A DNA stretch of 26,368 bases from a virus: positions 1 to 26,368 of the IMG/VR virus record IMGVR_UViG_3300010153_000090. The stretch is one strand, 5' to 3'. The position numbers and the translations under genes were made by a program. Of the stretch, positions 5,176-22,741 are shown piece by piece. A model generated the notes under the pieces. It was given only the letters and a program-made list of their open reading frames with translations, was not told the DNA's origin and made no database searches. Position 1 is the first letter of the stretch. Every line of letters begins with the position of its first letter.

Positions 5176-5643
5176 ATGCCCACACAAAGATATGGTATAA
5201 CATTTCCATTTGTTGATAGTTCAGAAGGATTTTTTCTAGGACTAAACACAGATACTGATAGTGAAGTTAGGTCTAACCTTATACATTTAGTGCTTACACC
5301 TAAAGGTTCGAGGTATTTTTTACCAGATTTCGGCACTAATTTAAATAAATATATTTTTGAATTAATGGATACGACAACTAAAATATCTATTGAAAGAGAG
5401 ATAAGAGAAGCCGTAAATAAATACATACCCAATCTAACCATAAACAGTGTGGAGGTAAAAACATTGGAGGATTTAAAGGCAGAAGAAAAACTTAATGAAC
5501 AAAATAACGACCCGTCTATGGACGATGGTAATATGAGTTTTGTTGGGGAAGCACAAAGAAATTATTCTATGAGAGTAAGAATTGATTATACGTCAGGAGA
5601 TGGTGTATTTGAGACTAAAGATTTTGTTATAATAGATTTATAG
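5176..5643 (+). CDS. gp25: Baseplate wedge protein, gp25 / gpW-like
   Basis: A 155-residue protein of the T4 gp25 / P2 gpW lysozyme-like wedge family, which sits at the core of the contractile-tail baseplate and helps start sheath assembly. The family core is plain: NLIHLVLTPKGSRYFLPDFG (35-53), a run on T NLNKYIFE, then IEREIREAVNKYIPNLTINSVEV (about 72-94), ending in a beta-hairpin (MRVRIDYTSGDGVFETKDFVIIDL). An acidic, probably disordered insert (about 95-125) makes it slightly longer than T4 gp25 (132 residues). It begins the structural gene run, and the gp6-like gene starts 1 base after its stop, the usual 25-6 neighbourhood. Confidence 0.88.
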   Translation: MPTQRYGITFPFVDSSEGFFLGLNTDTDSEVRSNLIHLVLTPKGSRYFLPDFGTNLNKYIFELMDTTTKISIEREIREAVNKYIPNLTINSVEVKTLEDLKAEEKLNEQNNDPSMDDGNMSFVGEAQRNYSMRVRIDYTSGDGVFETKDFVIIDL

Positions 5644-5644
5644 G

Positions 5645-7483
5645 ATGGCAGAGAAAAAAATAGCATATACAGAAAGAGATTTTCTAGGTATTAGAAATGA
5701 ATTATTAAGATTAACTAATACTTATTATCCAGATTTAATTAAAAATGCAAATGACGCTTCTATATATTCTGTATTTTTAGACCTTAATGCGGCGGTAGCA
5801 GACAATTTAAATTTCCAAATAGATAGAACTTTTCAGGAGACCGTACTACAATACGCTCAAGAAAGAAGTTCTTTATATAATATAGCAAAAACTTATGGGT
5901 TAAAAATACCAGGAAATCGACCATCAGTAACTGTAGTGGATTTGTCTATAATAGTACCTGTTTTAGGTGATAAAGAAGACTTTAAATATTTAGGCAGGTT
6001 AAGAGCTGGTTCACAATTTAGAGGAGCCGGTCAAGTATTTGAATTACTAGAAGATTGTGACTTCTCCTCTCAGTATAATGCAGAAGGAGTTCCAAATCAA
6101 ACCAAGATACCCAACAAGGACGCAAATGGGATAACACAAAACTATACCATAGTGAAAAGAGAGGTGGTGGTTAATGGTATAACCAAAGTATTCAAAAAAG
6201 AAATTACTGACGCAGATAGTAAACCATTTTATAAAATATTTTTACCAGAAAAGAATGTTATAGGTGTGACATCAGTTATACAAAAACCAGGATTAGGGTA
6301 CCAAACAATACCATCAAACACTGACTTCCTATCAACAACAGCTAATAAATGGCATGAGGTGGAAGCTTTAGCTCAGAATGAAGTATTTGTGTTGGACCCA
6401 TCTATGCCCGCGGATACACCAGGGATTAAAGTGGGTAAATATATAACAGTACCACAAAGATTTATTACTGAATTTACACCACAAGGATTTTTTCATTTAA
6501 CATTTGGTAGTGGTAACCAAACTTCTCAGGACTTACTAGATAATTTTGCTTCTAAAGGGGTTAAATTGGATATGTCTAAATTTTTAAATAATATAGCTTT
6601 AGGTAATTCAGTTAAAGCTAACACCACATTGTTTATACAGTATAGAGTAGGTGGTGGAAAAGCAGCAAATATTGGTGCAGGTGCAATAAACTCAATTGGG
6701 AACATAGACTTTGTTGTAGGGGGACCAAGCCAACAAATAAACCAAACCGTTATTAGTAGTTTAGCGGTTACCAATACTACAGCTGCTATTGGGGGAGCAA
6801 ATCAGATGTCCCCAGAAGAAATAAGAAATTATATATCATATAACTTTGCTGCACAAAATAGAGGTGTGACTATTAATGATTATGTTTCTAAATTAAGGAC
6901 TATGCCTGCGACATTTGGTGCACCAGCAAAAGTGGGTGTCACGGAAATAGAAAATAAAGTTAATGTTAATGTACTTTCTTATACGCCAGATGGTAAATTA
7001 ACTTCATTAGTTAGTAGTACCCTTAAAAATAATATAGCTAATTATTTATCTAATTATAGGATGATAAATGATTATGTTATGGTGGGTGCGGCTAGAGTAA
7101 TAGATTTAGGTTTTTCCATTGACCTTATTTTGGAAAAAAATGCAAATGAAGGAGAGATAGTAACCAATGTTATTACTAAGATAAGTGATTATTTTGCTGT
7201 AGATAAAATGGAACTAGGAGAAGACCTAACAATAGGTAGTTTAAGAGCCTTTATAATGTCACAACCAGGAGTACTTAATCTCACCGACATCCTAGTATTC
7301 AATAAAGTAGGTGGAAACTACTCACAATCAGTTACTACACAACCCTATGTCAATGCAACCACAAAACAAATAGGTTTAATTGATGATACCATTTACGCTC
7401 AACCAAACGAGATACTTCAGATTCGTTTCCCAAACCAAGACATCGCGGTTAGATACAAAAAACCAACTAAACCAGTACTTTAA
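5645..7483 (+). CDS. gp6: Baseplate wedge protein, gp6 / baseplate J-like
   Basis: A 612-residue homologue of T4 gp6 / P2 gpJ, which joins wedges into the inner baseplate ring. The N-terminus (YTERDFLGIRNELLRLTNTYYPDL, then NDASIYSVFLDLNAAVADNLNFQIDRTFQE) is typical of gp6/gpJ proteins. The strongest segment is SPEEIRNYISYNFAAQNRGV from residue 389, followed by TINDYVSKLRTMPATFGAP, the conserved J-family region that precedes the repeated beta-alpha-beta domains. The C-terminus carries a second J-type segment (GEIVTNVITKISDYFAVDKMELGEDLTIGSLRAFI). Length is near T4 gp6 (660). It follows the gp25-like gene by 1 base. The stop is TAA, followed by the largest gap within the structural block (114 bases). 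Confidence 0.88.
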   Translation: MAEKKIAYTERDFLGIRNELLRLTNTYYPDLIKNANDASIYSVFLDLNAAVADNLNFQIDRTFQETVLQYAQERSSLYNIAKTYGLKIPGNRPSVTVVDLSIIVPVLGDKEDFKYLGRLRAGSQFRGAGQVFELLEDCDFSSQYNAEGVPNQTKIPNKDANGITQNYTIVKREVVVNGITKVFKKEITDADSKPFYKIFLPEKNVIGVTSVIQKPGLGYQTIPSNTDFLSTTANKWHEVEALAQNEVFVLDPSMPADTPGIKVGKYITVPQRFITEFTPQGFFHLTFGSGNQTSQDLLDNFASKGVKLDMSKFLNNIALGNSVKANTTLFIQYRVGGGKAANIGAGAINSIGNIDFVVGGPSQQINQTVISSLAVTNTTAAIGGANQMSPEEIRNYISYNFAAQNRGVTINDYVSKLRTMPATFGAPAKVGVTEIENKVNVNVLSYTPDGKLTSLVSSTLKNNIANYLSNYRMINDYVMVGAARVIDLGFSIDLILEKNANEGEIVTNVITKISDYFAVDKMELGEDLTIGSLRAFIMSQPGVLNLTDILVFNKVGGNYSQSVTTQPYVNATTKQIGLIDDTIYAQPNEILQIRFPNQDIAVRYKKPTKPVL

Positions 7484-7597
7484 TAATCTTTACTATAGAC
7501 CCATGTTGAGTACTTTTAGTTTTAATGGTGGAACTATTTATGTTATAAGCACCATAAATGCAATAAATTATTTTATGGGGGTATAATAATATAAACT
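7484..7597 (+). other. 114-base intergenic gap with alternative hairpins and a TA-rich box
   Basis: This is the longest gap in the structural block. It can form two mutually exclusive hairpins: ATGGTG (7525-7530) with CACCAT (7550-7555), or ATTTATG (7536-7542) with CATAAAT (7553-7559). A TA-rich run, TATAATAATATAAA (7582-7595), ends 2 bases before the 1220-aa gene. A 27-codon reading frame (7503-7586) also fits, but nothing supports it as a gene. The gap could hold a promoter, a weak terminator, or only spacer. Confidence 0.3.
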
Positions 7598-10500
7598 ATG
7601 GGTAAATCATTTAGAGTAAGAACTGACATTAGAGTTGGAGGTGCGACAGACAAGAATGTAACCTTCGACCTGAATCAGGACTTTGACTTATTAGAAATTC
7701 TTAGTCTTTCTTTAACACAAACAGATGTTTACACTCGTATGTGTGCAGATTTCGGAGTTGTGGTGGGTAGGGTTATCACTAATGGTGGTTTCGGTATCCC
7801 CAACGCAAAAGTTTCTATCTTCGTCCCCCTTACTGATGAAGATGAAAAAAACCAAGTAATAAAACAACTTTATCCATTTAAAGAACCCTTTGACGTAACA
7901 GAAGATGGTAAAAGATACAATCTCCTTAGTAGTGAACCCAATTTTGATTGTCATGTAACGGTAGGTACATTTCCCACACTCAACGATGTTCTAAATCAAC
8001 AGGATGTTAAATATGTGTACGATAAGTATTATAAGTATACTGTGAAAACTAATGAGGCAGGTGATTTTATGATATATGGTGTACCAGTGGGTGACCAGAC
8101 TATAATAATGGATGTTGATGTAAGTGATATAGGTTGTTTCTCATTATTGCCAGAAGATTTTAAAATAAAAGGATATGCAGATTCTGATTTTGACGGGGCA
8201 AAGTTTAAAGATGAAACAGTAATCGATAGTCTACCTCAAATACTAAGTCAACAAAAATCTATAGATATTAGACCTTTTTGGGGGGATGAAGAATTTTGTA
8301 GAGCCGCAATCACGAGGGTAGATTTTGATTTAGGAGCAACCGGATTCAAACTAGAACCTAACGCGGTGTTTATGGGTAGTACCGCATCTGATACGGATAA
8401 AGATTCGGTCAATAGAAACTGTAGACCAAAAGCAGCTATGGGTGAACTTTGTAGTTTAATATCCAAACCAGGAATAATAGACTGTATAAGATACACACCA
8501 TTCTTTGAAAACAACCCAAACGCATACCCTGGATGGGGTGGTGGAGGTTGGGGTGCACCCATAGGGGGTGAAGTACCAATACTAGAAAGATACTATTTAC
8601 CGAACGGAGGTAGAGTCATTGATGATACAGGTTCTTTTTTAGTGCATATACCAATGAATTTGGATTATATGGTAACAAATGAATTTGGGGAGATGGTCCT
8701 ATCGGATGACCCAAGTGTTGGGGTACCAACCAGAACCAGATGTAGGTTTAGGATAAGACCAGAACAAGCAACAGGTGGAGCAAGACAAAGGAGAATTGGG
8801 AGTTACTTAGTACCCAATATTAGAGAATATTATGACCCTTGGGCAGGAAATAATGATGGTGATTGGCCAGGAATAGACCCACGTAGTTATACATTTTCTG
8901 TGGACTATAGTGATTATCACCCATGGGCACAAAGAAATTTAATACCAGCGGCAAAAGATGTATTCTATGACATGACATTTAATAGGGTATACACCTTCTC
9001 ACAATTCCATGACCATATTAAACATGGTGGTCGAAGACAATTTGTGGGTATAAAAAATATATTACCGGAAGCCGACCAACAATGTGCAACGACAGCGATG
9101 TTCTTTCCGATAAATAGTGCAGTAAGAGCTCCTAGTTTAATGGTATTTCTGTGGATGTTCATAATAGATTTTCTAGGGATGATTTATATGTTTTTAACCA
9201 TACTAATATCCACTTTAGCCATATTTTTAAGTTTAATATTAGCTATTATATTAGTTATAATGTGGGCATTATGTTGGTTGTGGTGTGCAATATATTGTAT
9301 TCGTATTACTTTATGGGGTTGGACTATTTTAGATATGCAAAGTCTCATTGGACCTAACGGTGCACCTCCTGAAGAATGTGGGTCTATTTGTATTACGGGT
9401 GCAGGTTGTTTTGGTTGTGGTACTGATTGTTCATATTTTGGACTTAGAATGGGATTTGTTTTATTTACTCTTAGACAAACAAAGTACCCAGAATGTGAAA
9501 AATGTATGTGTAGAACTATGGGGATAATGAGTGTCCCAGATTCACTAATCTACTTATCTAGTCAATGGCCTTGTCCTGGTGGAGTACCAGACAGTGCATC
9601 AGCAACCTCAACGTCTCCTCCAGGTAGTTGTGTGCCCCAATGTCCACCTGGTAATGGGGCTACGGGTGATGATTTTGGTGGTAAGTGGGAACATGATTGT
9701 TGTGCACAAACAGATGAAACTAGAGTGTGTTGCCCAGACCACTATGGGTATAGGTCTGATTTTGGACCAAATACAGCTGGAAGTACAGATGATGGAGTTG
9801 CGGGTGGTGGATGTTATGTTAAATTAATATGCTTTAGCCCTGGGTGTATTGGGCCTAATTATAATCTTACAGTACTTAAAGAATGGGTTAGAAGAGAAAA
9901 AATAGCACAAGCTTTATGTAACGGTGTGATGAATTATTTCTGGGAGAATAGTTGGGTAAGTGGATTCCTATACCAATTCCAATTTAGAGCTAAAGTAGAA
10001 TATGACCCCGCTAATGATACATATGCTACCCAATCCAAATACTGTAAAAAACTGGTATACCTACACCCAACCGAACATACTTTCTTTTATAGGTCAACAC
10101 CATTCCAATGTACTGGAATCGGACCAAGTGATGGTAATTTTATTGGTGATACTGACGGGGTTTACAAACCTTGGTGGATGATTGGGGGTGGAAATTCTAC
10201 CAGCGATATGCATGCCAAAGGAGATATGGACCGCCATATCTTATTCCCAACCACTATGGTAGATATGGGTTCAAGAAACCAATGTATACAACAAATATGT
10301 TTAGACCCTAAATATGCTAATGAGTGTTCTGTTACCGACCAAATAGGAAGTACGACATTCCAGGATATAACAGAACTTATTTCAGATACTTATAATCTTA
10401 AAATGCAACAAGGAGGAGCTTCACTATCTACCTTCTTCCCACGTCCAGAATATGAAATTGGGGGTGATGTTTCACAAGCATTAATGCAAAACTGTATGTT

Positions 10501-11260
10501 AGGTGTTGTTGGGTATGAAGCAAATGTAGGTACAACAGCGTGTGAATGTAGTTACCCTAACGGTCTAGGTTTTGGTGGGTTCTCTACCGCACCAGATGAT
10601 ATAGTACCACTTAGTGGTTTATCTTACCCATCTCCTAATTTTACCGCGGGAACATACATACAAAATGCTCTTAATGTAAATAACTTAGGTAACGAAAACC
10701 CATTTACACACATTCTTCTATGGGAACCTCTACTCTTTACAGCCTCAACTCAAACCATTATGAATGGACAAGATTTAATAGATTGTGTAACACTTGAATT
10801 ATCAGCGTCCAGTCAAAGTGTTCCATTTTACCCATGGCATTTAGATGCTGCGGGTGGGGCTATGTTAGGTGGACAACCAATTGGTGGGTTTGGTACAGTA
10901 TGGAATGATTGGATAGGAACTACAGGGGAATTTAGGTATGCGTTTGGTATACCAGGTCCTTTAATGTCTATATTACCATCTATTAATTATAATACCGCTC
11001 AGGGTAGTGCATTACATGGTATAGGTACACCATTAGTTTATGACGGTGAGTTCCAATCGTATATGGGAGGACCACCTACCGGACCATTCTCCTTTGCCAA
11101 CAATAACTATCCGTTACTTAATGGTGCACCCGCTGTTAGTGATGCTTATGTGTTCTCACAACCACTATTTTATTATTTTGGGTTAAGACCTGGAGCAACA
11201 TCATTCAATACGTTTGTACGGAAATATATCGATGAAGAATTAGCAGACACTGTAATATAA
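7598..11260 (+). CDS. Large virion/baseplate-associated protein with hydrophobic block, 1220 aa
   Basis: A 1220-residue protein of unknown family, placed directly after the gp6-like gene and so probably a virion component. Residues 54-175 look like a carboxypeptidase-regulatory/transthyretin-type beta sandwich: VVVGRVITNGGFGIPNAKVS, then YTVKTNEAGDFMIYGVPVG. A Gly/Trp loop (PGWGGGGWGAP) lies near 310. Residues about 513-576 are almost uninterrupted hydrophobic, from SLMVFLWMFIIDF through LWGWTIL, long enough for two or three membrane helices. Next comes a cysteine-rich stretch (about 585-740), including CFGCGTDC, CEKCMC and CC pairs. The rest is Gly/Asn/Pro-rich beta-like sequence typical of phage structural proteins. 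There is no N-terminal signal peptide. The stop overlaps the next start (TAATG). Expression and operon position are clear; function is not. Confidence 0.8.
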   Translation: MGKSFRVRTDIRVGGATDKNVTFDLNQDFDLLEILSLSLTQTDVYTRMCADFGVVVGRVITNGGFGIPNAKVSIFVPLTDEDEKNQVIKQLYPFKEPFDVTEDGKRYNLLSSEPNFDCHVTVGTFPTLNDVLNQQDVKYVYDKYYKYTVKTNEAGDFMIYGVPVGDQTIIMDVDVSDIGCFSLLPEDFKIKGYADSDFDGAKFKDETVIDSLPQILSQQKSIDIRPFWGDEEFCRAAITRVDFDLGATGFKLEPNAVFMGSTASDTDKDSVNRNCRPKAAMGELCSLISKPGIIDCIRYTPFFENNPNAYPGWGGGGWGAPIGGEVPILERYYLPNGGRVIDDTGSFLVHIPMNLDYMVTNEFGEMVLSDDPSVGVPTRTRCRFRIRPEQATGGARQRRIGSYLVPNIREYYDPWAGNNDGDWPGIDPRSYTFSVDYSDYHPWAQRNLIPAAKDVFYDMTFNRVYTFSQFHDHIKHGGRRQFVGIKNILPEADQQCATTAMFFPINSAVRAPSLMVFLWMFIIDFLGMIYMFLTILISTLAIFLSLILAIILVIMWALCWLWCAIYCIRITLWGWTILDMQSLIGPNGAPPEECGSICITGAGCFGCGTDCSYFGLRMGFVLFTLRQTKYPECEKCMCRTMGIMSVPDSLIYLSSQWPCPGGVPDSASATSTSPPGSCVPQCPPGNGATGDDFGGKWEHDCCAQTDETRVCCPDHYGYRSDFGPNTAGSTDDGVAGGGCYVKLICFSPGCIGPNYNLTVLKEWVRREKIAQALCNGVMNYFWENSWVSGFLYQFQFRAKVEYDPANDTYATQSKYCKKLVYLHPTEHTFFYRSTPFQCTGIGPSDGNFIGDTDGVYKPWWMIGGGNSTSDMHAKGDMDRHILFPTTMVDMGSRNQCIQQICLDPKYANECSVTDQIGSTTFQDITELISDTYNLKMQQGGASLSTFFPRPEYEIGGDVSQALMQNCMLGVVGYEANVGTTACECSYPNGLGFGGFSTAPDDIVPLSGLSYPSPNFTAGTYIQNALNVNNLGNENPFTHILLWEPLLFTASTQTIMNGQDLIDCVTLELSASSQSVPFYPWHLDAAGGAMLGGQPIGGFGTVWNDWIGTTGEFRYAFGIPGPLMSILPSINYNTAQGSALHGIGTPLVYDGEFQSYMGGPPTGPFSFANNNYPLLNGAPAVSDAYVFSQPLFYYFGLRPGATSFNTFVRKYIDEELADTVI

Positions 11261-13041
11261 TGAGTAACGAAAAAAATATACGAATAGTAAGGGGGGAATC
11301 GAAATTTGCAGGGTCCCCAAACAGTGATTTGCGCCTACAACCTTATTTAGATTCCACACAAAAACAAATACACGAAGGAGATAGGAATCTAGTTTTAAAT
11401 CTTAGGGACCAATTTGATTTCGAAAGAGAGTACTCAACACAATATAGATTATACGGTAAAATAGACATATTATTTAATAACATTATAAGTGGGACAACCC
11501 AAGAAACCGATTTTATGGAATCTATGTATTTTATCCCAGACTATATAGGTTGTCCCCAAACGCTAGGGGTACCACCAACTTATTGTTCAGGCCTACCACC
11601 AGCGGAAACATTTACCTTTATACCTTCTAGAAGGTATGGAATCAATCCAAGTAAAGCAGGGTGGGAACCATTACTAGCATCTCAAGATAATTGGGTACAA
11701 TATATATCCTATGTTCATGACGCTGATACTCTACAACCTATGACGTACTATACTGATTATGCCTCAATTTCTGGAATGCAATTTCTAGCAGGAGATGGTA
11801 TACCTTTTACCCCTAGAGTCACAACTACTGATGGTAAAGAAGTATTACAAATAATCACACCTGTAAGGCATGGTGTACTTCCAGGTGAATATATAGAAAT
11901 ACAATCAGGAGCTACCACGTTTGGTGGTGCAAATCTGGTAGTGGATGTGTCTGTAACAGCAACCTATGCTACCCCACCCCAAACGATTTTTAAAATAGAT
12001 TATCTAGGTAACGGGTTAGAAAATTCAGAAGATTACGTAATGAATATTACAACTATAGGTTTAGATGTGACCTCTTTACCCACCGAACCAGTAGGTACAT
12101 TAAAAAGAGTAACAAATCCAGATAATATGTTGGAAACCAAATCTGAATACTATTGTCAAATACATAAACTTATAACCAACCCAAACGACTTTACGTTTGA
12201 CAAAACAGCTTTTGAAAGAGGAATATACAATAAGAAAGGAAGGATATTCCCAGCAAAAAGGACCCCAACATACAATACAAAATCGGTCTTATACCAATCA
12301 TACGACTCATTTTTATGGAATGTTAACAGAAATATCAATAGTGATAGTTACTATGACCAATTTAATAGACCATTAACAGAGTTTTATTTAACAATATTAA
12401 CCACCAACAGAAATTTAATTTGGGATTGGAATTCTGGTGGTAATTCTAGTCCTGCTGGTTATGGTTGGGGTTGGAATTTTAAAAAGAATGGTGTTGTTGA
12501 CCCATTTGTAGATAATGGAGCACACCCAGTCAGTCTAACTCAAAATGGTAATTTAGGTGTTGACCCACTACCACCTAGTGGGTCTACATTTAGAGGAGCT
12601 TTTGCGGAATATAATCCTTTTGAATTAAAAGAAAGGGTAATTTCTGAAATAGGTCATTCTTTAAAATTTAATACAAATACCATGTATAAGGTAGGTGGAA
12701 CACCTGGATATGATTTTGTGGAATCCATATTCAAATATAACCCCCACCATAAAATTCCAGTAAAAAAATTCTCTAATTATATAAGTTATAATGATAGTCT
12801 GTTTACATCGCCCCAGTACGCTGTTTATTCTTTATCAGAGGAAACATTTAGGTGGAGAGAAATTTTACCGGTAGAAACTTATGAAGATGGGGATAATGGG
12901 GTTAGTTATCCATATCTTAATGATGCACACTACCCATACCATAATTTAGAATTTAAAATAGAGGCAGTTGGGCCCGCATTAATCCCACTATCCTCTGGAA
13001 CATTAACTATACTAACAGAATATACAGATGGCTGTCAATAG
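11260..13041 (+). CDS. Hypothetical structural-type protein, 593 aa
   Basis: I do not recognise a family. It is translationally linked on both sides: its ATG shares a base with the preceding stop (TAATG), and its last 14 bases overlap the next gene. This suggests fixed expression ratios within one structural operon. The composition (Tyr, Asn, Thr, Pro, Gly-rich, few Lys clusters, no membrane segment) fits a beta-rich virion protein. The N-terminal 70 residues are charged (RLQPYLDSTQKQIHEGDRN) and may be helical. A middle section (about 195-260) has strand-like alternation, including HGVLPGEYIEIQSGATTFGG. It could be a baseplate, fibre-adaptor or fibre protein. It has only a few cysteines, unlike its neighbours. 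Confidence 0.75.
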   Translation: MSNEKNIRIVRGESKFAGSPNSDLRLQPYLDSTQKQIHEGDRNLVLNLRDQFDFEREYSTQYRLYGKIDILFNNIISGTTQETDFMESMYFIPDYIGCPQTLGVPPTYCSGLPPAETFTFIPSRRYGINPSKAGWEPLLASQDNWVQYISYVHDADTLQPMTYYTDYASISGMQFLAGDGIPFTPRVTTTDGKEVLQIITPVRHGVLPGEYIEIQSGATTFGGANLVVDVSVTATYATPPQTIFKIDYLGNGLENSEDYVMNITTIGLDVTSLPTEPVGTLKRVTNPDNMLETKSEYYCQIHKLITNPNDFTFDKTAFERGIYNKKGRIFPAKRTPTYNTKSVLYQSYDSFLWNVNRNINSDSYYDQFNRPLTEFYLTILTTNRNLIWDWNSGGNSSPAGYGWGWNFKKNGVVDPFVDNGAHPVSLTQNGNLGVDPLPPSGSTFRGAFAEYNPFELKERVISEIGHSLKFNTNTMYKVGGTPGYDFVESIFKYNPHHKIPVKKFSNYISYNDSLFTSPQYAVYSLSEETFRWREILPVETYEDGDNGVSYPYLNDAHYPYHNLEFKIEAVGPALIPLSSGTLTILTEYTDGCQ

Positions 13042-13978
13042 ATTAAATATAAAAGCTTCATTAAAGGATAGGAGTGTGACCATTCCTATAGGTCAAACAT
13101 TTGACGAAATAGGTAATGAACAATTAGTTAGAACTTGGGAAGAGGTAGAATTACAAGATAATATAAATGTAATACAAGATTATGAGACTACTAGATATGC
13201 TCATAAAAATAATGTTGTTAATCTTTATAGTGGTGGAAACAACACCATATCCTACTCATTTGAATTTTGGGATTCTGCAACTAATTCTTATGTAGATAAT
13301 TTTAATGTTTTAGGTTTTTTAAATAAGGATTTAGCTAAACCTAAAAAAGCATTTACTAGGAGTTTTTTTAAGTTTGATTTCTATGACTCACCATTAAGAA
13401 AAGAACAAAAAATAATGTTTACAACTATAATGCCATTAAATAATTGTATTAGAGTGGAAACGCCCGTAGATGAATTTGAAGACCCTATAGAATATTTTTC
13501 TCAGATAGCATCGGGTATATTATTACCTATGTATGGGGTATATGTCCCTACATGTGTTTTAGGCCCCTTACACGGAAGAAGTGAGAATTATTATATCCAG
13601 TGGTTAAAAGACAGAGAATTAACAGAAATTGACGAATTCTATATGAGTTGTAAATTCTTTAACGCAAAAACTGGAAAAGTAAGTAACATGATAAATGAAC
13701 AACCCACATTAAGTCAAATTACTAATGGGGAAATATTAAGTTACCCAGAATGGTTTTACTATAAAGTTAAATTATTTATAAACACCAGTAACGCATCTAC
13801 GACCAACCCAAAATATCGGTATGTGGTTACTCAGTTTAACGAAACTATTATGGCTATAGGGGGAGGGACACCAAGAGGGACTGGGTTACCAGGAGGTACA
13901 CCATCAGGTGCGATTCCAGGTACACTACAAGTACCCAACGCGATGCCAATAAAATTTTATGAATATGTAAGTGCTTAA
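13028..13978 (+). CDS. Hypothetical structural-type protein, 316 aa
   Basis: I do not recognise a family. The start (ATGGCTGTC) lies within the end of the preceding gene, and the giant gene follows after 3 bases, so it is probably co-translated with both. It is a mixed alpha/beta protein with aromatic segments (YSFEFWDSATNSYVDNFNV, FTRSFFKFDFYDSP). Near the C-terminus is a Gly/Pro/Thr-rich flexible linker (GGGTPRGTGLPGGTPSG, about 278-294) followed by a short hydrophobic tail. Linkers of this type are common in fibre-adaptor proteins. A partner or adaptor for the giant cysteine-rich protein is possible but is inferred from position only. Confidence 0.72.
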   Translation: MAVNRLNIKASLKDRSVTIPIGQTFDEIGNEQLVRTWEEVELQDNINVIQDYETTRYAHKNNVVNLYSGGNNTISYSFEFWDSATNSYVDNFNVLGFLNKDLAKPKKAFTRSFFKFDFYDSPLRKEQKIMFTTIMPLNNCIRVETPVDEFEDPIEYFSQIASGILLPMYGVYVPTCVLGPLHGRSENYYIQWLKDRELTEIDEFYMSCKFFNAKTGKVSNMINEQPTLSQITNGEILSYPEWFYYKVKLFINTSNASTTNPKYRYVVTQFNETIMAIGGGTPRGTGLPGGTPSGAIPGTLQVPNAMPIKFYEYVSA

Positions 13979-13981
13979 TAT

Positions 13982-16900
13982 ATGGAAATCCACAAATATA
14001 GAATAAAAAGAAGTAACCCTAGTGTTTACTTCACAGTACCATGTACTGGAGGGACGAATTTCTACCCTATAAATACGAGCACCAATTGTTCCGGGCTTAC
14101 AATGTACAACTCCACATTTAGTCAAGTACAAAACGCTTTACAGGGGGATATGAATAATTTTCCAACAGAGTTAACTGCTTGTTCGACTACTAATCCATGT
14201 GTTTTATTAAATGATACTACTACTATGCCAGTGTATGCACCCGGCCCACCATATGGTAATGTAGCACCAATAGCATCTCCATTTTGTTTAGATGTAGAAT
14301 CACATCCTTATGTGATATTTGCGGGGTTAAACTTATTTCAGGCTGGTGTAATGACATTTACTGGTGAAAGTTATAATGACTTAATAAGTGTGTTCCAGTT
14401 AACACAATCCACCTTATCCCAACCACTTAACACACAAACTACAGCTCATTTAGCAGCTAACACCGTATCTTGTTTTTGTCCACAACCTATTTTCAATGAC
14501 CTATACCAAATACCTTTATTCTTAGACCAAGACTTTAACGATATTGGTCACTATGATATCTGGGATGGTAATGTGGGACAAAAAGACATTTTTTCTAATT
14601 TTATAGTTACGGCAACTACTGCTGTAGGTAACAAAATACAAGTATCTAATACTACTGATTTCGGTTATTACAAGACATATCAAGATTCACCATATACTAT
14701 AGATTGGGGGGACTGCAATTGTAATTGTCCTATACCTCCATGTACAAATTCATTTGGGGACCCTTGTTGTGAAACACTACAATTCCCAACCCTAACCAAC
14801 CCAACACCCCACACTTATGCTGGTGTAGGGACTAGAAGAATTACCATAACACAGGAAAATGAATGGGGACCAACCTCAGTTTCTCAAGTTATATCGGTTC
14901 CTTTTATGCCATATAATACATTACAAGCTCAAACTTATAATGCAGCTGCCAACACAGGAATAGCTCCTAGTAATGCCCCCGTAATAGGACCAAGTGGACC
15001 AGTAGGTACTAATACATATTTTGGAGCATATCCTTTCTCACCTTTAGATTCAGGTACAGATATATTACAATATAGTGGAATGTCTCCAATATTTTATGGT
15101 GGTAACAATAGTAATTGTTTTGACGTTACAGGGAATACACAAAGTCTATTAGGTGCATTCCAGAGTTACACTTCACTATCAACAGGTAATTTACCCCCAG
15201 GATACCAACTGGGTGTGGCGGTACCATTAATGGGGGAAGTGATAAACCCACTAACCAACCAAATAGAACAAGGGGTTACTGGAATGATTACTATTGAAAC
15301 TACACAGTACACCGCTTACACCATTAGTATAGGGACTAATACACCAATAACATTTTATGACTTTAGTAATGGAGTTACTCTTTACGAAGCTGTTAGTTGT
15401 GGGTTAGATGCTTTTGCTTTTGGTGCGTTTGATTGTGTAAAGTGTGAAATAGGGGATTGTACTTATTGTGAAACAAAAGACGAATATATAGATAGAATAA
15501 CAACTCTAGCAGAACCAATAAGTTTTGACCCACTGCTTAACACTAATTGGGGTGAGTGGACTGGTACCACCAACTACATAAAAGGTGATATAGTATTTGA
15601 TTCTACATGGGGAGAATGTTGTTGTTATATGGCAGTAAAAGATATTAATCAGTCAGGGGGAACCATAGACCCTTGGGCCGGTATTAAACCAACAGATATG
15701 ATTCAAGGTGTGTGGTGGTTTAATGGACAACCATCAGAACATGTTTGGGAAGCTTGTACACCAGAATGTGAAGCATGTCCAGATTACACATCAATACCTT
15801 GTTATGACCCAACAAATACCTGGAATGCATACCCAACTATAACACCAGTAGGTCCCGCAGGAGTCTATAGTAATGGGAATGTATATATTACCGGCCAATT
15901 TACATTAGGTCAATGGGGTAATTGTTATAGAGCTTTATCCGGTGGTACATTACCACCCCCATCAGGATTAACAAATAACCAATATTGGGATTATATAGGA
16001 TGTTCTAGTTGGGTTTGTCCACCAGTATCAGCTCAAACAGGACAATCATCAAGTTCTACAGTAACTTGTGAGTTAGTACCAGGAACTGGGACAACAACAG
16101 TTGGACCATGTACCACAATTGGTTATACAGCTTATGAAGATTGTATGACTGATTTTTATCTAGGACAATGTTGTGAAGATAGATGGATTTGTGATGAACA
16201 ATATGCTTGTTCTGGGTGTACAGAAATTTCTTCAGCACATCCTTTATATAATGACCCTAGTGCGTTAGACCCAGCCCAAGGACCAGTTTTTGGTAATGAA
16301 ATGGATTGTTTAGAGTGGTGTGAACCACCGGCTTACTCATGTACTACTAGTAATCCACAAGCAGGGGGTAATTGTTGTAGTTTATTATCATGTCAAGACG
16401 ATTCTTTAAATGGAACAACCTACTATATAGACAATGTATATGCGGTAATGCAAACCTTACCACCAACACCAGCACCTTTTTCAAGCTTTATTGATTATGC
16501 CGCTTTTACTTTTGAATTGTTTTTTGACCCTTATACTCTAAGTGATTGTAATGCAGGGTTCACAAATCCAGCAGGGACTTATAGTGGTTGTTGTGATTGG
16601 GTTAGGTGGGTTTATAATTGTGAAGAAGGATGTAAACCCGTCTATGTAGGTTCAGGTTATGCAACTTCCGGTGATTGTTATGCAGCCAACCCACAATGGT
16701 TAGGGGTTGGAGACACCCCTTGTGGTTGGGACTGCCCAATCCCTTGTGAAGGATGTGTAACAGCAAGTACACTAATGGCACCGTATACCTATGACGCAAC
16801 AGGACTAACCCAATGTGAAATGGTTTGTTCTTGTGCTACGGAATGTTATGTATGTGATTGTTTAAATGAAGTAAATGGAGCAAATGTTCCTTGTTATGCA

Positions 16901-19900
16901 TTTATTAGTGCGGGTACACATACGTGTCCTTATTGGCCCGTTTCTAACACAGGAACGGACCCTTGGGTACCGACATCAGGTCCATATGCGGGAATGGCCA
17001 CCTTTGCATCATCAATTGAATGTCAAAGTGCGTGTACATGTCCTGGGGGATATGATTGTTTTGTGTATGATGATGTACCTTCTAATAGTCCTTCTATAGT
17101 AGGCACACAAGTAGGTGGTTGTACTTATTATGCTAGTGAGTGGGCTATGGCTCAAGTAGGAGTAACATACCCACCAGGTTCACCTACCGACCCTCAAGGA
17201 AACCCAACAGGGTATACTACTTTTGAAGAATGTTGTAACGCAACAGAGTGTTGTCGTGCGGTTTGTGAAGCAGACCCAGCACAGGCTGCATTCATGGGAT
17301 GGACAGCGTACACCACTACAGGTCCTGCACTCCAAAGTGGTGGTGGGGGACAACTACCATGTTATTGGGTATCGCAAAGTGACTTAGATGATACAGAAGG
17401 TCCAGGTTTTGTAAATTGTTGTTCACCAGCATATGTAAATCTAGCTTCAGGTTTATTTGGGATGGCACAATGTTTTATAGACCATCCAGGTTTACCTTAT
17501 TGTGATATGATAGATTGTGTAAATAGTTTATGTCCAGACCCACTGAGTACTACAGGAATGACATGTTGTGTACCACTAGAAGAAACTTGTAATTGTGCGT
17601 GTGAAGACTGGTTAACCGTAAACGGAATACCAATTACTACTGGATTTACTTGGATGGGACCATGGACTAATGTAAATAACACTTATAACATATATGAAAC
17701 CGTAACCTATGGAGATGCAAACACCCCTGATTGTTGTTGGATATGTATGTGTCCGATTGATATAACTGGTTTACCACCAGGAGCAGGAGGGGTTTATGAT
17801 TGTAACTCTAGTCCACCAGATGATGGACCTTACCCTGACGGAACACCAAATTGTTGGCAAACATGTGAAAGATTACCATCTTTTGACCCATCTACACCAA
17901 CACCAGTTATTGGAGACCCTTGTGGTCCTTGTGATACCGTTAGTGGAGATACATATTCTTGTACTGAATCGGGTTGTACACAATCTGCTTGTACGTACAA
18001 TGTACCCACAGGATACAATGTAGCTCAGTGGGAAACCGAAAATAATTGTTATTTAACTACTGATTGTTCCAATGCACTTTCTTTTTATCATGGCCAATGT
18101 AGAGCAGGTTGTTATTGTGCAGACCCAGGACCCCCATCAGGATTTGAAGCTTCAGAAGTCTCAAATTGTGTTGTACTGCAAGATTATATCCTAAATACTG
18201 ATTTGGGTATTAATTATCTTGGTTATTCTCCATACCCATATACATTTCCCCCTGTTGCACCCAGTGTAGTTTTACTATTTCTTGGAGCACCAAGTGGGTA
18301 TTTATGGTCATACGATTCTCTTATAACCTGTGAGACCCAACTATCTACTGGAATGTTTGATTGTTGTACGGGAGGTACAGGAACTACTACGTGGGAATGT
18401 GACTATAGTTGTAACTGCCCACAAGTAAATGGTAATCCATGTTTGGGTGGTGTAGGGTGTTATCCAGTTTATGGTCCCGGAGGAACTTTTGCTTCATTAT
18501 CTGCTTGTCAAGAATGGTGTACATGGGAATGTAATTCTCAAGGTGCACAAACCTGTCAATTTATCCCTATGTCCCTAGCAGCAGTAACTTATACTTCAGC
18601 TGTGGATTGCGAACTCGCAAATGTGGATTGTCTATGTAATAATTATGTAGAAGAATGGTGGTGTGATTGGGCTGGGGCTGATGCGGGATTGTACGATGCG
18701 GTAGGGTCCTCAGCGTGCCGCCCAAGTTCATATATTGGGTTACAAGGAATTTCATACCAAACACAAGCTATTGGACAAGGAGTAGGGGGTCCTTCAGACC
18801 CTACTAATAATTATAATTGGGCGGTAACCCTAGGTAATTTACCAGTGGGACAAGGATTCCCCACACAAGCACAATGTGAAGAGCATTGTAGATTTTGTTG
18901 TGATTGTGCACCTCCAGGGACAGGTGGTTGTGAATTATGTGGTAATCCAGCAACATCACATTGTAATTGGGGTGATTTGACCTGTCTTGGTGGTACAATG
19001 TCTTGTGGTACTGGTTTACCAAGTAGCATTTCACCAGGAAACTGTTCGGACCAACAAATAATTCAAACAGGGTCCAAAAGATGTGAAGAACCACAAACTG
19101 AATATTGTTGTCACGCTATAGATGGGTGTTTATCCTATATTGGAGCAGCACCAAATGGTAGTGATGGTAACCCATGTGTTACTTTCTTTGGAACAAATGC
19201 CGCGGCTTGTACTACAGAATGTAATTTTGTATGTGGGGAATGTGTTCCACCTATAGGAGATTGTCACTGTCAATTTGTTAATGGACCAGTATCACCTTCA
19301 TGTTCTCCATACCCATTTAATACGATGTTAGATTGTGAAAATCATGTTGCTGGACTAATTTTATTAGGGGATGATGGTTCATGTTGTAAATGTTATGAAT
19401 GTCACGCAAATAGCCCTATAACGTACCAAGAGTGGGACGGTACAGCATGGGTACTAGGGTCTACAATCGTTCCAACAGCTTTTGGTGTTTTACCTTGGGT
19501 TTCGGGACAAGCCTACGCAATAGGTGATATTGTTATTGATACTTTTGATAATACTGAGTGTTGTTATGTTTGTGTGTGGGATTATACAACAGACTGGACT
19601 ATCCCACCTTATTTCTACTATCAAGCATATCTTAATGACTTAACTGCGAATACACCAGTTTGGCCAGGAGGTGGTACAGGAAGTTTAATGTGGGTACCAT
19701 GTGATGTTGGTTGTGTACCGGGTGTGGGTACAACAACCTATGATTGTATTCCAGGTGCAATCACAGACAATTGTTCAACTAAAACACTAATAACACCACC
19801 CGTAACTCTGTTATCTAGTTTTGATGTTTTAGAAATGATAGGAAACCCGACAGGGGTACCATACTTACAAACAACTCTTGTTAACACAATAAAATTCCCT

Positions 19901-22741
19901 TATGGTGGATTTGCTGGTAGCATCACCAATGCATGTATACATAATGGTTTGCCACTAGCACAAGATGGGAGTGGTATAAAAATACATAATAGTGTTGCTT
20001 CAGCTCTAGGAATACCATTCGGATACCCATCATGGACTAACATGATTTCCAACCTAGCTAGTGCAGGTGTAACTAACAACGCGGGTAATATAGTTAGTTT
20101 ATCAGACGATTTTGATTCAGTTTGTTTAGCAATAAATGCTGTTTGGGGGTCATATAGGAGAGAGAAATGTATGGACTTTTTACCAGACCCATGTACATGT
20201 ACACAAGACCCTTGTTCGTGTCTATTGATTAATGGACCTACTGGAGAATTCAATAACATAGGAGACTGCCAACAATTATTACTCACTAATCCGTGTTGTG
20301 GTACTTGGGAATGTTCACGCAAGGATTGTGATTGTGTATTCGTACCAAATCTTTTAACTGGATATCCCTCACAAATGGATTGTTGGAATGATAAAAATTG
20401 TTGTGAAGTTCAGTACCCTGAATACGTATGTGACCAAATCCCTATTATAGGTCCTGTAGGTGGTAACAACTATAATTGTGATTGTGTACTAGTACCTAAT
20501 GGTACTGTTGGAGCTTACACAGGCCCAAATGCATTATTTGATTGTGAAAACGACCCAACCACATGTTGTTCAGGTATGACAATGCCAGATAGATGGAAAT
20601 GTACACCAGATTGTAATTGTGTTTTAGGTGACCCATTCAGTCAATATGCTACTTTACACGACTGTCAAACAGCAATCAACCATAATTGTTGTTATACCGG
20701 AGGAACCAAAGAGTGGGAATGTGTTAATTTTGGAAGCCCAACAGGGTGTAAATGTGTACAAACCGCTTCTCCTGGAGGTGGATGGCCTACACAAGCAGAT
20801 TGTGAAGCTCAGGTTAACGATTGTTGTTACACAGGAAAAACAAGATGGGATTGTAAAATAGGTAATAATGGATTATGCAAGTGTGTAAGCAATCCACTAT
20901 TTGGTACATACGCTTCTTTATATGATTGTCAAAATAGTATTGGCACACCAACCAATTGTTGTGAAACTCAATCCGGTGATTGTAAAGACGATTGTAGTAA
21001 AGGAACTATAACACCTACTTACATCGCACATAATGGTACTTACATCATTGGAACTACCGCAACTTACTCACTATCATCAACTAATATTTTAGGTTTATGG
21101 TTATCGGGGACTTATTATAATCTTTTTGATACGGTTAAAGACCCTTACGATGACTGCTGTTATGTTTTAGTACTTGATGGATGTCATTTTATTGGTAGTG
21201 ACATTATGAATTATTCACCTAGTCAAATATACCAAAATCACTTAAATGGGTTCTTCTATAATGGTACAACACTACCAGTATCAACCGCAGAACAATATGC
21301 ACAAAATAGGGGGCCAGTATGGTGGCCATGCGACCCAAAATGCCCAACTAGTAATCCCGATTCAGGTTATGATTGTATTAATTGTCCTGGAACTTGTAAT
21401 TGTGTAGTGAATAATACACCTAGTGCGATGTATCAAGGAGTTAACGCTTTATCACTATGTGTTGCAGACTGTAAATGGGGGTGTGAAGATTGTACTGTTA
21501 ATTTAGCTGGTTATTTAACCGGACCAATGGATTATGAAGGTATGTGGTACTCAACATTTTTACCAGCATATGTAGAAAATGACTGTGTTACTGACCCAGC
21601 TGACGGTTGTTGTTATTGTTGTGTAAGACTCACTTCACCAGGTTCAGGACCACTATCTAAGATTCAATGTAAATCCCAACATCAACCATCATTAAATATA
21701 GGTGTAAATATAGGTGGTGGTGCAACATGGATGGATTGTAAAGCACAAACAAATGGTGACCCATGTAAGGGTGGTCCGAGTACAGTTGATTGTAATAATT
21801 GTGACACTTACATGGCAACTACTTGGGGAGCTACATTACCATTAACATGGAAGGCCAACCCATTATCGTACCAACACTTTAATCCAAATATGTGTGTTTA
21901 CGACCCAAAACATGAATGTTGTTATTGTTGTATGGGTTCACCTAATGGAGACCCTAATGATTTTGGTCCTGGATGGATTGACCACGATGACCCGTTTGAA
22001 GGACCAGGTTTTCCAGCTTCAGCTCCTTGTTCTATATACGATATCGACCCAACTGATGGGAATTGGGAATATTACGGTTCAACAAATATGAATAACGGAA
22101 TAATCTATGGTTGGGTTAGTTGTAGCCCTACACTAGGTGTACCATGTGGTGGTGGGGTAACTAGTATGAACTACGCTTGTACAAACCAACCAGTACTGGG
22201 TAATCCTGGTAATATGGCATGTACACCAGACCCAGCAGGGCCATATACGAGTCTTCCACAATGTCAAAGTTCACCTTGTCCTCCCCCAGTAACCCCATGT
22301 AAAGAGTGTTGTGGGAAACTTAATAAAAATGGAACGTGGACCTACCAAAATCTCCAATCTAATGCGAATCCGTGTGATTGTGAATTTTGGTTGGGAATTG
22401 GGTGGACACCACAACCCTCAAATAAGTGTTGTATACCAAAAAAATGTCCAAAAGGACAGGTTTGGAACCAAGCACAATGTAGGTGTATACCTATAATCAT
22501 TGGGCCTCCCCCTCCTCCTCCTTTTGAGGATGATTGGGTGACTGGAGAACCTTGTATACAAACAGAAAGTTGTGCTAGGGGTCATTATTGGGATTGGGTT
22601 AAATGTGAGTGTGTTAGAGGGGAGGGCCCTTGTACACCACCTATAGAAGGATGTCCAAAAGGACAAGTATGGAATACCGTTACTTGTAGGTGTGAGAAAA
22701 TAATAATTGCACCCGACCCACAATCAGAAATTTTATCATAA
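13982..22741 (+). CDS. Giant cysteine-rich modular protein, 2919 aa, putative surface/adhesion protein
   Basis: A 2919-residue uninterrupted protein with about 250 cysteines by hand count (some 8-9%) and about 30 adjacent CC pairs, encoded mainly by TGT. I do not know a characterised homologue. The first 500 residues are cysteine-poorer and contain a PKD-like domain (about 200-310; DWGD at 241-244, then HTYAGVGTRRITIT). Beyond that are cysteine modules of three kinds. The first is W...GD.V.D..CCY modules resembling CBM5/12 carbohydrate-binding domains (from about 523). The second is W.C-C.CV-DC-CC repeats, six in tandem at 2069-2327. The third is three CxxGxxW...CxC repeats (2822-2904), two of them separated by a PPPPPP linker. 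A cysteine-poor insert lies at about 1931-2066. There is no signal peptide or membrane segment. It sits between wedge genes and overlaps the next gene by 1 base (TAATG). I infer a virion surface protein binding host glycans, stabilised by disulfides or metal. Confidence 0.8.
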   Translation: MEIHKYRIKRSNPSVYFTVPCTGGTNFYPINTSTNCSGLTMYNSTFSQVQNALQGDMNNFPTELTACSTTNPCVLLNDTTTMPVYAPGPPYGNVAPIASPFCLDVESHPYVIFAGLNLFQAGVMTFTGESYNDLISVFQLTQSTLSQPLNTQTTAHLAANTVSCFCPQPIFNDLYQIPLFLDQDFNDIGHYDIWDGNVGQKDIFSNFIVTATTAVGNKIQVSNTTDFGYYKTYQDSPYTIDWGDCNCNCPIPPCTNSFGDPCCETLQFPTLTNPTPHTYAGVGTRRITITQENEWGPTSVSQVISVPFMPYNTLQAQTYNAAANTGIAPSNAPVIGPSGPVGTNTYFGAYPFSPLDSGTDILQYSGMSPIFYGGNNSNCFDVTGNTQSLLGAFQSYTSLSTGNLPPGYQLGVAVPLMGEVINPLTNQIEQGVTGMITIETTQYTAYTISIGTNTPITFYDFSNGVTLYEAVSCGLDAFAFGAFDCVKCEIGDCTYCETKDEYIDRITTLAEPISFDPLLNTNWGEWTGTTNYIKGDIVFDSTWGECCCYMAVKDINQSGGTIDPWAGIKPTDMIQGVWWFNGQPSEHVWEACTPECEACPDYTSIPCYDPTNTWNAYPTITPVGPAGVYSNGNVYITGQFTLGQWGNCYRALSGGTLPPPSGLTNNQYWDYIGCSSWVCPPVSAQTGQSSSSTVTCELVPGTGTTTVGPCTTIGYTAYEDCMTDFYLGQCCEDRWICDEQYACSGCTEISSAHPLYNDPSALDPAQGPVFGNEMDCLEWCEPPAYSCTTSNPQAGGNCCSLLSCQDDSLNGTTYYIDNVYAVMQTLPPTPAPFSSFIDYAAFTFELFFDPYTLSDCNAGFTNPAGTYSGCCDWVRWVYNCEEGCKPVYVGSGYATSGDCYAANPQWLGVGDTPCGWDCPIPCEGCVTASTLMAPYTYDATGLTQCEMVCSCATECYVCDCLNEVNGANVPCYAFISAGTHTCPYWPVSNTGTDPWVPTSGPYAGMATFASSIECQSACTCPGGYDCFVYDDVPSNSPSIVGTQVGGCTYYASEWAMAQVGVTYPPGSPTDPQGNPTGYTTFEECCNATECCRAVCEADPAQAAFMGWTAYTTTGPALQSGGGGQLPCYWVSQSDLDDTEGPGFVNCCSPAYVNLASGLFGMAQCFIDHPGLPYCDMIDCVNSLCPDPLSTTGMTCCVPLEETCNCACEDWLTVNGIPITTGFTWMGPWTNVNNTYNIYETVTYGDANTPDCCWICMCPIDITGLPPGAGGVYDCNSSPPDDGPYPDGTPNCWQTCERLPSFDPSTPTPVIGDPCGPCDTVSGDTYSCTESGCTQSACTYNVPTGYNVAQWETENNCYLTTDCSNALSFYHGQCRAGCYCADPGPPSGFEASEVSNCVVLQDYILNTDLGINYLGYSPYPYTFPPVAPSVVLLFLGAPSGYLWSYDSLITCETQLSTGMFDCCTGGTGTTTWECDYSCNCPQVNGNPCLGGVGCYPVYGPGGTFASLSACQEWCTWECNSQGAQTCQFIPMSLAAVTYTSAVDCELANVDCLCNNYVEEWWCDWAGADAGLYDAVGSSACRPSSYIGLQGISYQTQAIGQGVGGPSDPTNNYNWAVTLGNLPVGQGFPTQAQCEEHCRFCCDCAPPGTGGCELCGNPATSHCNWGDLTCLGGTMSCGTGLPSSISPGNCSDQQIIQTGSKRCEEPQTEYCCHAIDGCLSYIGAAPNGSDGNPCVTFFGTNAAACTTECNFVCGECVPPIGDCHCQFVNGPVSPSCSPYPFNTMLDCENHVAGLILLGDDGSCCKCYECHANSPITYQEWDGTAWVLGSTIVPTAFGVLPWVSGQAYAIGDIVIDTFDNTECCYVCVWDYTTDWTIPPYFYYQAYLNDLTANTPVWPGGGTGSLMWVPCDVGCVPGVGTTTYDCIPGAITDNCSTKTLITPPVTLLSSFDVLEMIGNPTGVPYLQTTLVNTIKFPYGGFAGSITNACIHNGLPLAQDGSGIKIHNSVASALGIPFGYPSWTNMISNLASAGVTNNAGNIVSLSDDFDSVCLAINAVWGSYRREKCMDFLPDPCTCTQDPCSCLLINGPTGEFNNIGDCQQLLLTNPCCGTWECSRKDCDCVFVPNLLTGYPSQMDCWNDKNCCEVQYPEYVCDQIPIIGPVGGNNYNCDCVLVPNGTVGAYTGPNALFDCENDPTTCCSGMTMPDRWKCTPDCNCVLGDPFSQYATLHDCQTAINHNCCYTGGTKEWECVNFGSPTGCKCVQTASPGGGWPTQADCEAQVNDCCYTGKTRWDCKIGNNGLCKCVSNPLFGTYASLYDCQNSIGTPTNCCETQSGDCKDDCSKGTITPTYIAHNGTYIIGTTATYSLSSTNILGLWLSGTYYNLFDTVKDPYDDCCYVLVLDGCHFIGSDIMNYSPSQIYQNHLNGFFYNGTTLPVSTAEQYAQNRGPVWWPCDPKCPTSNPDSGYDCINCPGTCNCVVNNTPSAMYQGVNALSLCVADCKWGCEDCTVNLAGYLTGPMDYEGMWYSTFLPAYVENDCVTDPADGCCYCCVRLTSPGSGPLSKIQCKSQHQPSLNIGVNIGGGATWMDCKAQTNGDPCKGGPSTVDCNNCDTYMATTWGATLPLTWKANPLSYQHFNPNMCVYDPKHECCYCCMGSPNGDPNDFGPGWIDHDDPFEGPGFPASAPCSIYDIDPTDGNWEYYGSTNMNNGIIYGWVSCSPTLGVPCGGGVTSMNYACTNQPVLGNPGNMACTPDPAGPYTSLPQCQSSPCPPPVTPCKECCGKLNKNGTWTYQNLQSNANPCDCEFWLGIGWTPQPSNKCCIPKKCPKGQVWNQAQCRCIPIIIGPPPPPPFEDDWVTGEPCIQTESCARGHYWDWVKCECVRGEGPCTPPIEGCPKGQVWNTVTCRCEKIIIAPDPQSEILS
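14580..14910 (+). other. PKD-like domain in the giant protein
   Basis: Residues about 200-310 include TIDWGD (239-244) and later HTYAGVGTRRITITQENEWG, the two hallmarks of PKD/Ig-like domains (WGDG near the start, HTY.. G.Y.V.V near the end). A cysteine-rich insert (CNCNCPIPPC and following) separates them. Such domains usually act as spacers or adhesion modules on cell-surface and phage-tail proteins. The boundaries are approximate. Confidence 0.5.
15548..22080 (+). repeat. Dispersed CBM5/12-like 'CCY' modules in the giant protein
   Basis: At least six modules share the order W, 6-9 residues, Y or F, two residues, (G)D-x-V-x-D, 3-8 residues, CC[YW], then a later W-x-C. They lie at about 15548-15769, 17651-17803, 19496-19714, 21098-21343, 21545-21664 and 21824-22080; a weaker one is at 15821-16019. 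The shared cores read VFDSTWGECCCY, VIDTFDNTECCYVC, VKDPYDDCCY, VTDPADGCCYCC and VYDPKHECCYCC. The W..Y..GD.V...Y order resembles CBM5/12 (chitin-binding type 3) domains, but their usual WW motif is not clear in all copies. The repeat is seen directly; the glycan-binding role is inferred. Confidence 0.6.
20186..20962 (+). repeat. Six tandem W.C-C.CV-DC-CC repeats in the giant protein
   Basis: Residues 2069-2327 hold six units of about 35-50 residues. Each has (W)x-C, then C-x-C-[VL], an aromatic or Gly-rich turn such as GTYASLYDC or SQYATLHDC, then a CC pair. Units 5 and 6 are joined by near-identical text (NCCYTGGTKEWEC and DCCYTGKTRWDC) that is also similar at DNA level, pointing to recent tandem duplication. 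Looser relatives occur earlier (near 16600-16690 and 18390-18900). Six cysteines per unit is consistent with small disulfide-bonded domains. I cannot name a family with certainty. Confidence 0.65.
22445..22693 (+). repeat. Three C-terminal CxxGxxW...CxC repeats
   Basis: Near the C-terminus are CPKGQVWNQAQCRC, CARGHYWDWVKCEC and CPKGQVWNTVTCRC (residues 2822-2904). The first and third share a near-identical DNA stretch (TGTCCAAAAGGACA at 22445 and 22652). A six-proline linker lies between the first and second. They could be a small disulfide-bonded binding or anchoring module. Confidence 0.65.

Follow-up and report, generated by a model that had tools for sequence, protein, structure and literature searches.

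The window, i.e., the whole stretch of DNA analysed, is a virus record of 26,368 bases in which genes for an exonuclease, a DnaB-like helicase, a ribonucleotide reductase and two baseplate wedge proteins (gp25 and gp6/Baseplate_J) lie upstream of the gene for a 1220-aa protein with an extremely hydrophobic block. The features concerned are as follows:

5176..5643, + strand: gp25-like baseplate wedge protein (PF04965, E 1e-11, over cut-off; PHROG 261)
5645..7483, + strand: gp6/Baseplate_J-like wedge protein (PF04865, E 1e-10, over cut-off; PHROG 6)
7598..11260, + strand: 1220-aa block-bearing protein, no Pfam or PHROG family (AF2 model m09f572bb112a, residues 1-1199)
7742..8356, + strand: N-terminal beta domain, residues 49-253, transthyretin/CnaB/carboxypeptidase-regulatory-like (VIA-align, weak Pfam)
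9134..9325, + strand: hydrophobic block as first described, residues 513-576, SLMVFLWMFIIDFLGMIYMFLTILISTLAIFLSLILAIILVIMWALCWLWCAIYCIRITLWGWT (hydropathy, charge count)
9137..9295, + strand: single predicted 53-residue helix, residues 514-566 (AF2, pLDDT 84-90; 3.60 period over columns 514-567)
9326..9877, + strand: cysteine-rich region, residues 577-760, 18 Cys (Cys count)
9485..9511, + strand: YPECEKCMC, 3' of the block, an instance of the family motif YPxCxxCxC (pattern search, alignment)
11260..13041, + strand: 593-aa protein, no family (ORF, neighbour count)
13028..13978, + strand: 316-aa protein after the 593-aa protein, none over family cut-off (ORF)
13982..22741, + strand: 2919-aa protein, probably fibre-like, 248 Cys (8.5%), no family (ORF)

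A preliminary description of this sequence had reported a hydrophobic block at residues 513-576 of the 1220-aa ORF, a cysteine-rich region directly after it and no signal peptide; the first two of these observations held up, and the third agrees with the hydropathy scan. Only two of the 64 residues in the block are charged, and residues 525-568 contain no D, E, K, R, H, N, Q or P across 44 residues. The best 44-residue Kyte-Doolittle (KD) mean is 2.52, whereas the highest value among 2000 shuffled versions of the 1220-aa protein is 1.90, and the best 19-residue mean is 3.06, compared to a shuffle maximum of 2.97. The N-terminus, MGKSFRVRTDIR, is without a hydrophobic stretch, as judged by the hydropathy scan only. 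The cysteine-rich region holds 18 of the 40 cysteines of the protein, or 9.8% of its residues, vs. 1.8% in residues 1-512 and 2.2% in residues 761-1220.

In the AF2 model, residues 1-45 are strands of low confidence and the protein is beta-rich to either side of the predicted helix. The beta domain at residues 49-253 gave VIA-align Z scores of up to 7.4 (82 aligned residues, 2.5 Å), which are under the clear-match level of the tool, and its Pfam match to CarboxypepD_reg (E 0.009) is below cut-off. The matches listed by Foldseek and VIA-align are mostly Ig/transthyretin-like beta domains and bear on the beta parts of the protein, not on the helix; only residues 49-253 are covered by at least one fifth of the VIA-align rows, and a second model, that of the relative L102, gave a similar list. 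For the whole protein, neither PHROG (at E 0.1) nor Pfam (over cut-off) gave a match, the gp7 families included, and the A1 profile retrieved only chance-level rows from the PDB sequences (best E 0.79). Assignment as a tape measure protein was considered and rejected, given the beta-rich parts on both sides of the helix and the lack of a tape measure PHROG match; in this connection, PF10145 was looked for in four larger records of relatives and not found, and phrog_5 gave no match either.

Of 158 loci with enough flank, all 158 have a gp6 homologue within 1.5 kb upstream of the gene for the block protein. In addition, gp25 lies upstream in 122 of 122 testable loci, and in 72 of 93 the following gene encodes a homologue of the 593-aa protein, where all these counts include the window and some loci are the same contig counted twice. 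This context suggests that the 1220-aa protein is probably a tail-baseplate protein. The order gp25-gp6-large protein, with gp25 and gp6 recognisable, is like that of the T4-type wedge module of gp25, gp6 and gp7. A helical bundle is described for the wedge proteins BW2 and BW3 in PMC10811340, and a gp7/BW3 protein would have a mostly helical N-terminal part that bundles with gp6, whereas the window protein starts with strands and the beta domain, and its long, strongly hydrophobic helix lies in the middle of the protein. The large proteins encoded a few genes past gp6 in immuto, Mel-JY01 and LR756508 showed neither a hydrophobic block nor profile similarity to the block protein.

Two further observations were made at these loci. 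Sequences fitting V-x-L/I-...-Q-x-F-D are found at the N-termini of the 1220-, 593- and 316-aa proteins (from 7598, 11260 and 13028; VTFDLNQDFD, LVLNLRDQFD and VTIPIGQTFD, respectively) and are perhaps a common docking strand on the baseplate. In locus L087, an extra 137-aa ORF (7579-7992, + strand), the first half of which is hydrophobic over a long stretch, lies between gp6 and the block protein, where the window has only ~110 bases.

Conservation of the hydrophobic block

Relatives were gathered in a protein scan (49), a profile scan (132, of which 80 were used) and a wider profile scan (590, of which 80 were used). In total, 149 family ORFs were taken, and the 8 that ended before residue 600 were left out, which left 141 for counting; the short loci L046, L047, L049 and L050 and the repeat loci L090 and L093-L098 were not read for the block. 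The 141 relatives carry 119 distinct block strings, L002 being the same as the window in the block protein and some loci being the same contig twice.

The block is found at the same place in all 141 relatives of at least 600 aa. Their 19-residue hydropathy peak between residues 450 and ~640 is above 1.8 in every case, above 2.0 in 139 and above 2.5 in 126. The preliminary description had proposed a search for the block in relatives and had named its absence from homologues as the outcome that would tell against it; such absence is excluded for the relatives examined. Past the block, the exact motif YPxCxxCxC occurs within 200 aa in 127 of the 141 relatives, and some of the 14 ORFs without it end at that place. 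The residues C633 and C636 are invariant in 70 of 70 alignment rows.

In the 70-row alignment, no residue between P504 and C633 is invariant, although invariant residues are found on both flanks. The mean hydropathy of residues 521-560 is ~2.2, with 3-4% charge, while the entropy of these residues is ~2.5 bits, compared to 0.5-2 bits in residues 1-500 save for one stretch at 2.05. Thus, hydrophobicity rather than sequence has been kept in the block. Within the helix, entropy is lowest (1.9 bits) in the most hydrophobic sector (KD 3.7) and is 3.0 bits in the least hydrophobic one (KD 0.2); the conserved face consists to ~80% of I, L, V and M with hardly any charge, and the variable face is small or polar.

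The less hydrophobic face varies among relatives. Its KD value is 1.48 in the window, 0.95 in 34 close rows, 0.58 in 30 other rows and -0.10 in 6 far rows, where 18.5% of its residues are charged. In the divergent relatives L080, L152 and L106, the helix is amphipathic: charged residues lie on one face, and no more than 18-35 residues are strongly hydrophobic. Full membrane-grade hydrophobicity is thus not shared by every member. As predicted from the sequences, what is common to the members is a long, conserved, greasy face, and the remaining surface ranges from greasy, as in the window, to charged, as in L080. The predicted helix of the window, like that of the close rows, is compatible with a membrane over its entire surface. 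Basic stretches just after the block were also noticed in divergent relatives, i.e., KRKRKR in L079 and RKKKKRK in L078; the net charge of the C-terminal flank has a median of 0 among the 141 relatives.

A single helix or several membrane crossings

The preliminary description had suggested that the block might cross a membrane twice or three times. The AF2 model of the window protein, built with 70 sequences (mean pLDDT 77.3, pTM 0.76), has one helix at residues 514-566. The AF2 model of residues 1-800 of L102, which is 44% identical to the window protein, was built with 47 sequences (mean pLDDT 69.6, pTM 0.51) and has one unbroken helix at residues 487-545, with pLDDT mostly 64-82. The predicted helix is therefore unbroken over 53-59 residues in both models, which are not fully independent because their input sequences overlap.

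Further analyses of the alignment gave a consistent picture. The best period of hydropathy over columns 514-567 is 3.60, with an amplitude that was reached by none of 1000 column shuffles. From one third of the block to the next, the phase of this period is 48, 44 and 50 degrees, and in three alignment subsets of 34, 6 and 30 rows it stays within 33-58 degrees. Because a turn would break the phase that all thirds keep over the 54 positions, two or three crossings are unsupported. The block is instead predicted to be one continuous helix of ~53 residues, or ~80 Å at 1.5 Å per residue.

A two- or three-pass transmembrane domain, as first proposed, does find some favour in the length and hydrophobicity of the block, which would suffice for it: three non-overlapping 19-residue stretches (from 514, 544 and 565) have negative octanol sums, and a proline is found at column 545 in 28% of the 70 rows. 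The octanol scan is permissive, as two stretches in the cysteine-rich region were also marked. Given that neither AF2 model has a turn and that the phase of the 3.6 period is unbroken in the whole set and near constant in the three subsets, we regard a multi-pass domain as very improbable. What stood of the preliminary reading, without the two or three crossings, is that a protein encoded in the baseplate cluster of a contractile virus has a conserved, membrane-grade hydrophobic segment.

The viruses that carry the block

The 26,368-base window fragment contains no gp23 capsid or sheath gene, and the virus type was read from larger records of relatives. T4-type gp23 was found in two of seven and two of six such records, i.e., in 4 of 12 distinct records (one was tested twice). 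The sheath family was matched in four of four larger records (E 2e-7 to 3e-8), with one match over cut-off; the matching frames of L179, L181 and L182 are very long (1070-1145 aa). The gp23 and sheath genes of relatives indicate that these viruses are probably contractile members of the T4 superfamily.

The gp23 of the block-bearing viruses is 34-36% identical over 250 aa to that of RM378, the only Far-T4 isolate (PMC4360716, PMC7198788, PMC13037479, each for the parts dealing with this group). The nearest gp23 proteins from isolates, those of Flavobacterium phage immuto and Microcystis phage Mel-JY01, are 44-47% identical over ~40% of the protein, and the nearest gp23 record overall is a 484-kb phage. 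By pairwise gp23 identity, on which the name rests, the viruses appear to be related to the uncultivated Far-T4 group. RM378 shares with them a matching gp23 but has no recognisable homologue of the block protein: hmmsearch with the A1 and A3 profiles against the ORFs of at least 250 aa from the whole of RM378, and from the examined parts of immuto, Mel-JY01 and LR756508, yielded no E value below 0.2. Similarly, tblastn searches with four members (the window, L087, L132 and L099) against 50,697 phage records gave no match and thus no isolate relative. A relative was found in BFVD, the uncharacterised protein A0A8S5LA66 of Myoviridae sp. ctPuP5 (994-aa model; Foldseek E 9e-56, 981 columns, 25% identity). 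In the literature, we found no paper joining 'Far-T4' with 'transmembrane', the available text of the founding Far-T4 paper contains neither 'baseplate' nor 'transmembrane' (PMC4360716), and among the papers listed on baseplates and membrane segments no title or abstract opening concerned the block protein.

One relative, L087 (QCKH01000004.1), lies in a single-cell genome labelled Prochlorococcus sp. AG-409-L21, one of 151 genomes of that family. Its gene order, as read by eye, is the same as that of the window, i.e., exonuclease, helicase, ribonucleotide reductase, gp25 and gp6. The gp23 of the same assembly is of the same kind, with 62% identity to the gp23 of another record (G002), and the virus seemingly lies on two contigs, one with the block protein (C4) and one with gp23 (C9, L169). 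Neither contig was found to carry psbA, which was seen solely on a different contig of the assembly. The hosts suggested in print for Far-T4 viruses are Bacteroidetes/Flavobacteriales (PMC7198788, PMC13037479). For a group with such suggested hosts, this link to a cell is a rare one.

Possible roles of the helix

It has long been asked how the DNA of contractile phages crosses the inner membrane once the tube is through the outer layers; elsewhere, this passage is ascribed to the tape measure protein or to unknown components. We tentatively propose that a bundle of long hydrophobic helices is stored in the baseplate and becomes membrane-active on firing, in a manner like that of phi29 gp9, a reading that we consider plausible but short of probable. 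Several copies of the protein, three or six, would each contribute a helix in the resting virion, and these helices would pack via their conserved aliphatic face, sheltered by the baseplate. Opening of the baseplate or passage of the tube would release the bundle into the host membrane, where it would act as an anchor or a hydrophobic barrel of helices and aid DNA passage in the way of the phi29 gp9 L-loop. The stored-bundle half of the proposal comes from the conserved face; the release half, like the presence of the protein in the virion, its oligomerization and its membrane insertion, is what we infer.

For the preliminary suggestion, in which contraction might expose the block and let it enter the host envelope, there is by analogy a solved precedent in the L-loops of phi29 gp9. 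These make up a bundle of helices in the knob tube and, once ejection has taken place, a helix barrel that is hydrophobic on its outside, as given in parts of PMC6542822. Both systems have a hydrophobic helix-forming segment within a tail-tip protein, with the tail role here coming from gene context. As far as the same parts of that paper describe it, phi29 is a short-tailed phage in which a loop is held in a knob tube, whereas the viruses here are probably contractile, the gene follows gp6 and the segment is one 53-residue helix. The phi29 gp9 fold was not among the fold matches listed for either AF2 model, and no sequence similarity to it was shown.

The greasiest face of the helix is also the most conserved, which suggests first of all that it packs in a helix bundle. 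A block buried in a coiled or trimeric core, which the preliminary description had named as an outcome unfavourable to its reading, is borne out in this part, a conserved greasy face being expected for a bundle. Such a face is no less to be expected in a buried protein core than in a stored bundle. The helix might be a permanent structural core: three or six copies would form a helix bundle in the baseplate, with this helix as the central strand, and the helix would never meet a membrane. The conserved aliphatic face would then form the bundle core, and the variable face would lie under other baseplate proteins or, in divergent relatives, in water. The aliphatic nature of the conserved face and the small or polar nature of the variable one, the single straight helix in both AF2 models and the amphipathic versions in L080, L106 and L152 are all consistent with this explanation, which we consider possible and nearly as likely as the stored bundle. 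The extent of the hydrophobicity argues against it: the 44 residues of the window without D, E, K, R, H, N, Q or P and the KD values of 0.95-1.48 on the supposedly exposed face are far greasier than an ordinary coiled coil, and a 19-residue peak above 2.5 has been kept in 126 of 141 relatives. The less hydrophobic face of the window and of its close relatives does not resemble a water-facing surface, which speaks, in turn, for the stored bundle. A helix of 53 residues is about twice as long as a bilayer is thick, which speaks against that proposal.

Basic residues are usually located at the inner side of membrane anchors (the positive-inside rule). A membrane-grade helix followed by a basic stretch, as in L079 and L078, would accordingly suit a protein that sits in the host inner membrane and on which the baseplate is built, the helix having no role in entry. 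A single crossing would, however, place the 510-aa N-terminal and 650-aa C-terminal parts, both conserved and beta-rich, on opposite sides of the membrane, and the median charge of the C-terminal flank, 0 among the 141 relatives, also tells against it. We consider such an assembly anchor improbable.

If the stored-bundle proposal is carried further, viruses across this uncultured T4-superfamily group may have in their baseplates a membrane-penetrating device of their own, in which an oligomeric bundle of 80-Å hydrophobic helices, unlocked by contraction, would form or line the inner-membrane passage; this extension is speculative and, at present, rather unlikely. A conserved membrane-grade helix encoded by a baseplate-operon gene of widespread uncultured viruses nonetheless offers a specific 53-residue segment for study and, even if only structural, an unusually hydrophobic baseplate element. 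Since no Pfam or PHROG family covers the block protein, its gene is also a good marker for these viruses.

The cysteine content of the whole 1220-aa protein is 3.3%. In the phage Milano, the structural proteins have a mean of 2.1% Cys and disulfide networks lock the baseplate, according to parts of PMC10811340. The 2919-aa ORF of the window (13982-22741, + strand), which is without a family match, is far richer in cysteine, and many of its counterparts in relatives, mostly cut by the end of the locus, also have 7.7-8.3% Cys. Such a cysteine-rich giant, probably fibre-like, is odd for a virus that assembles in the cytoplasm.
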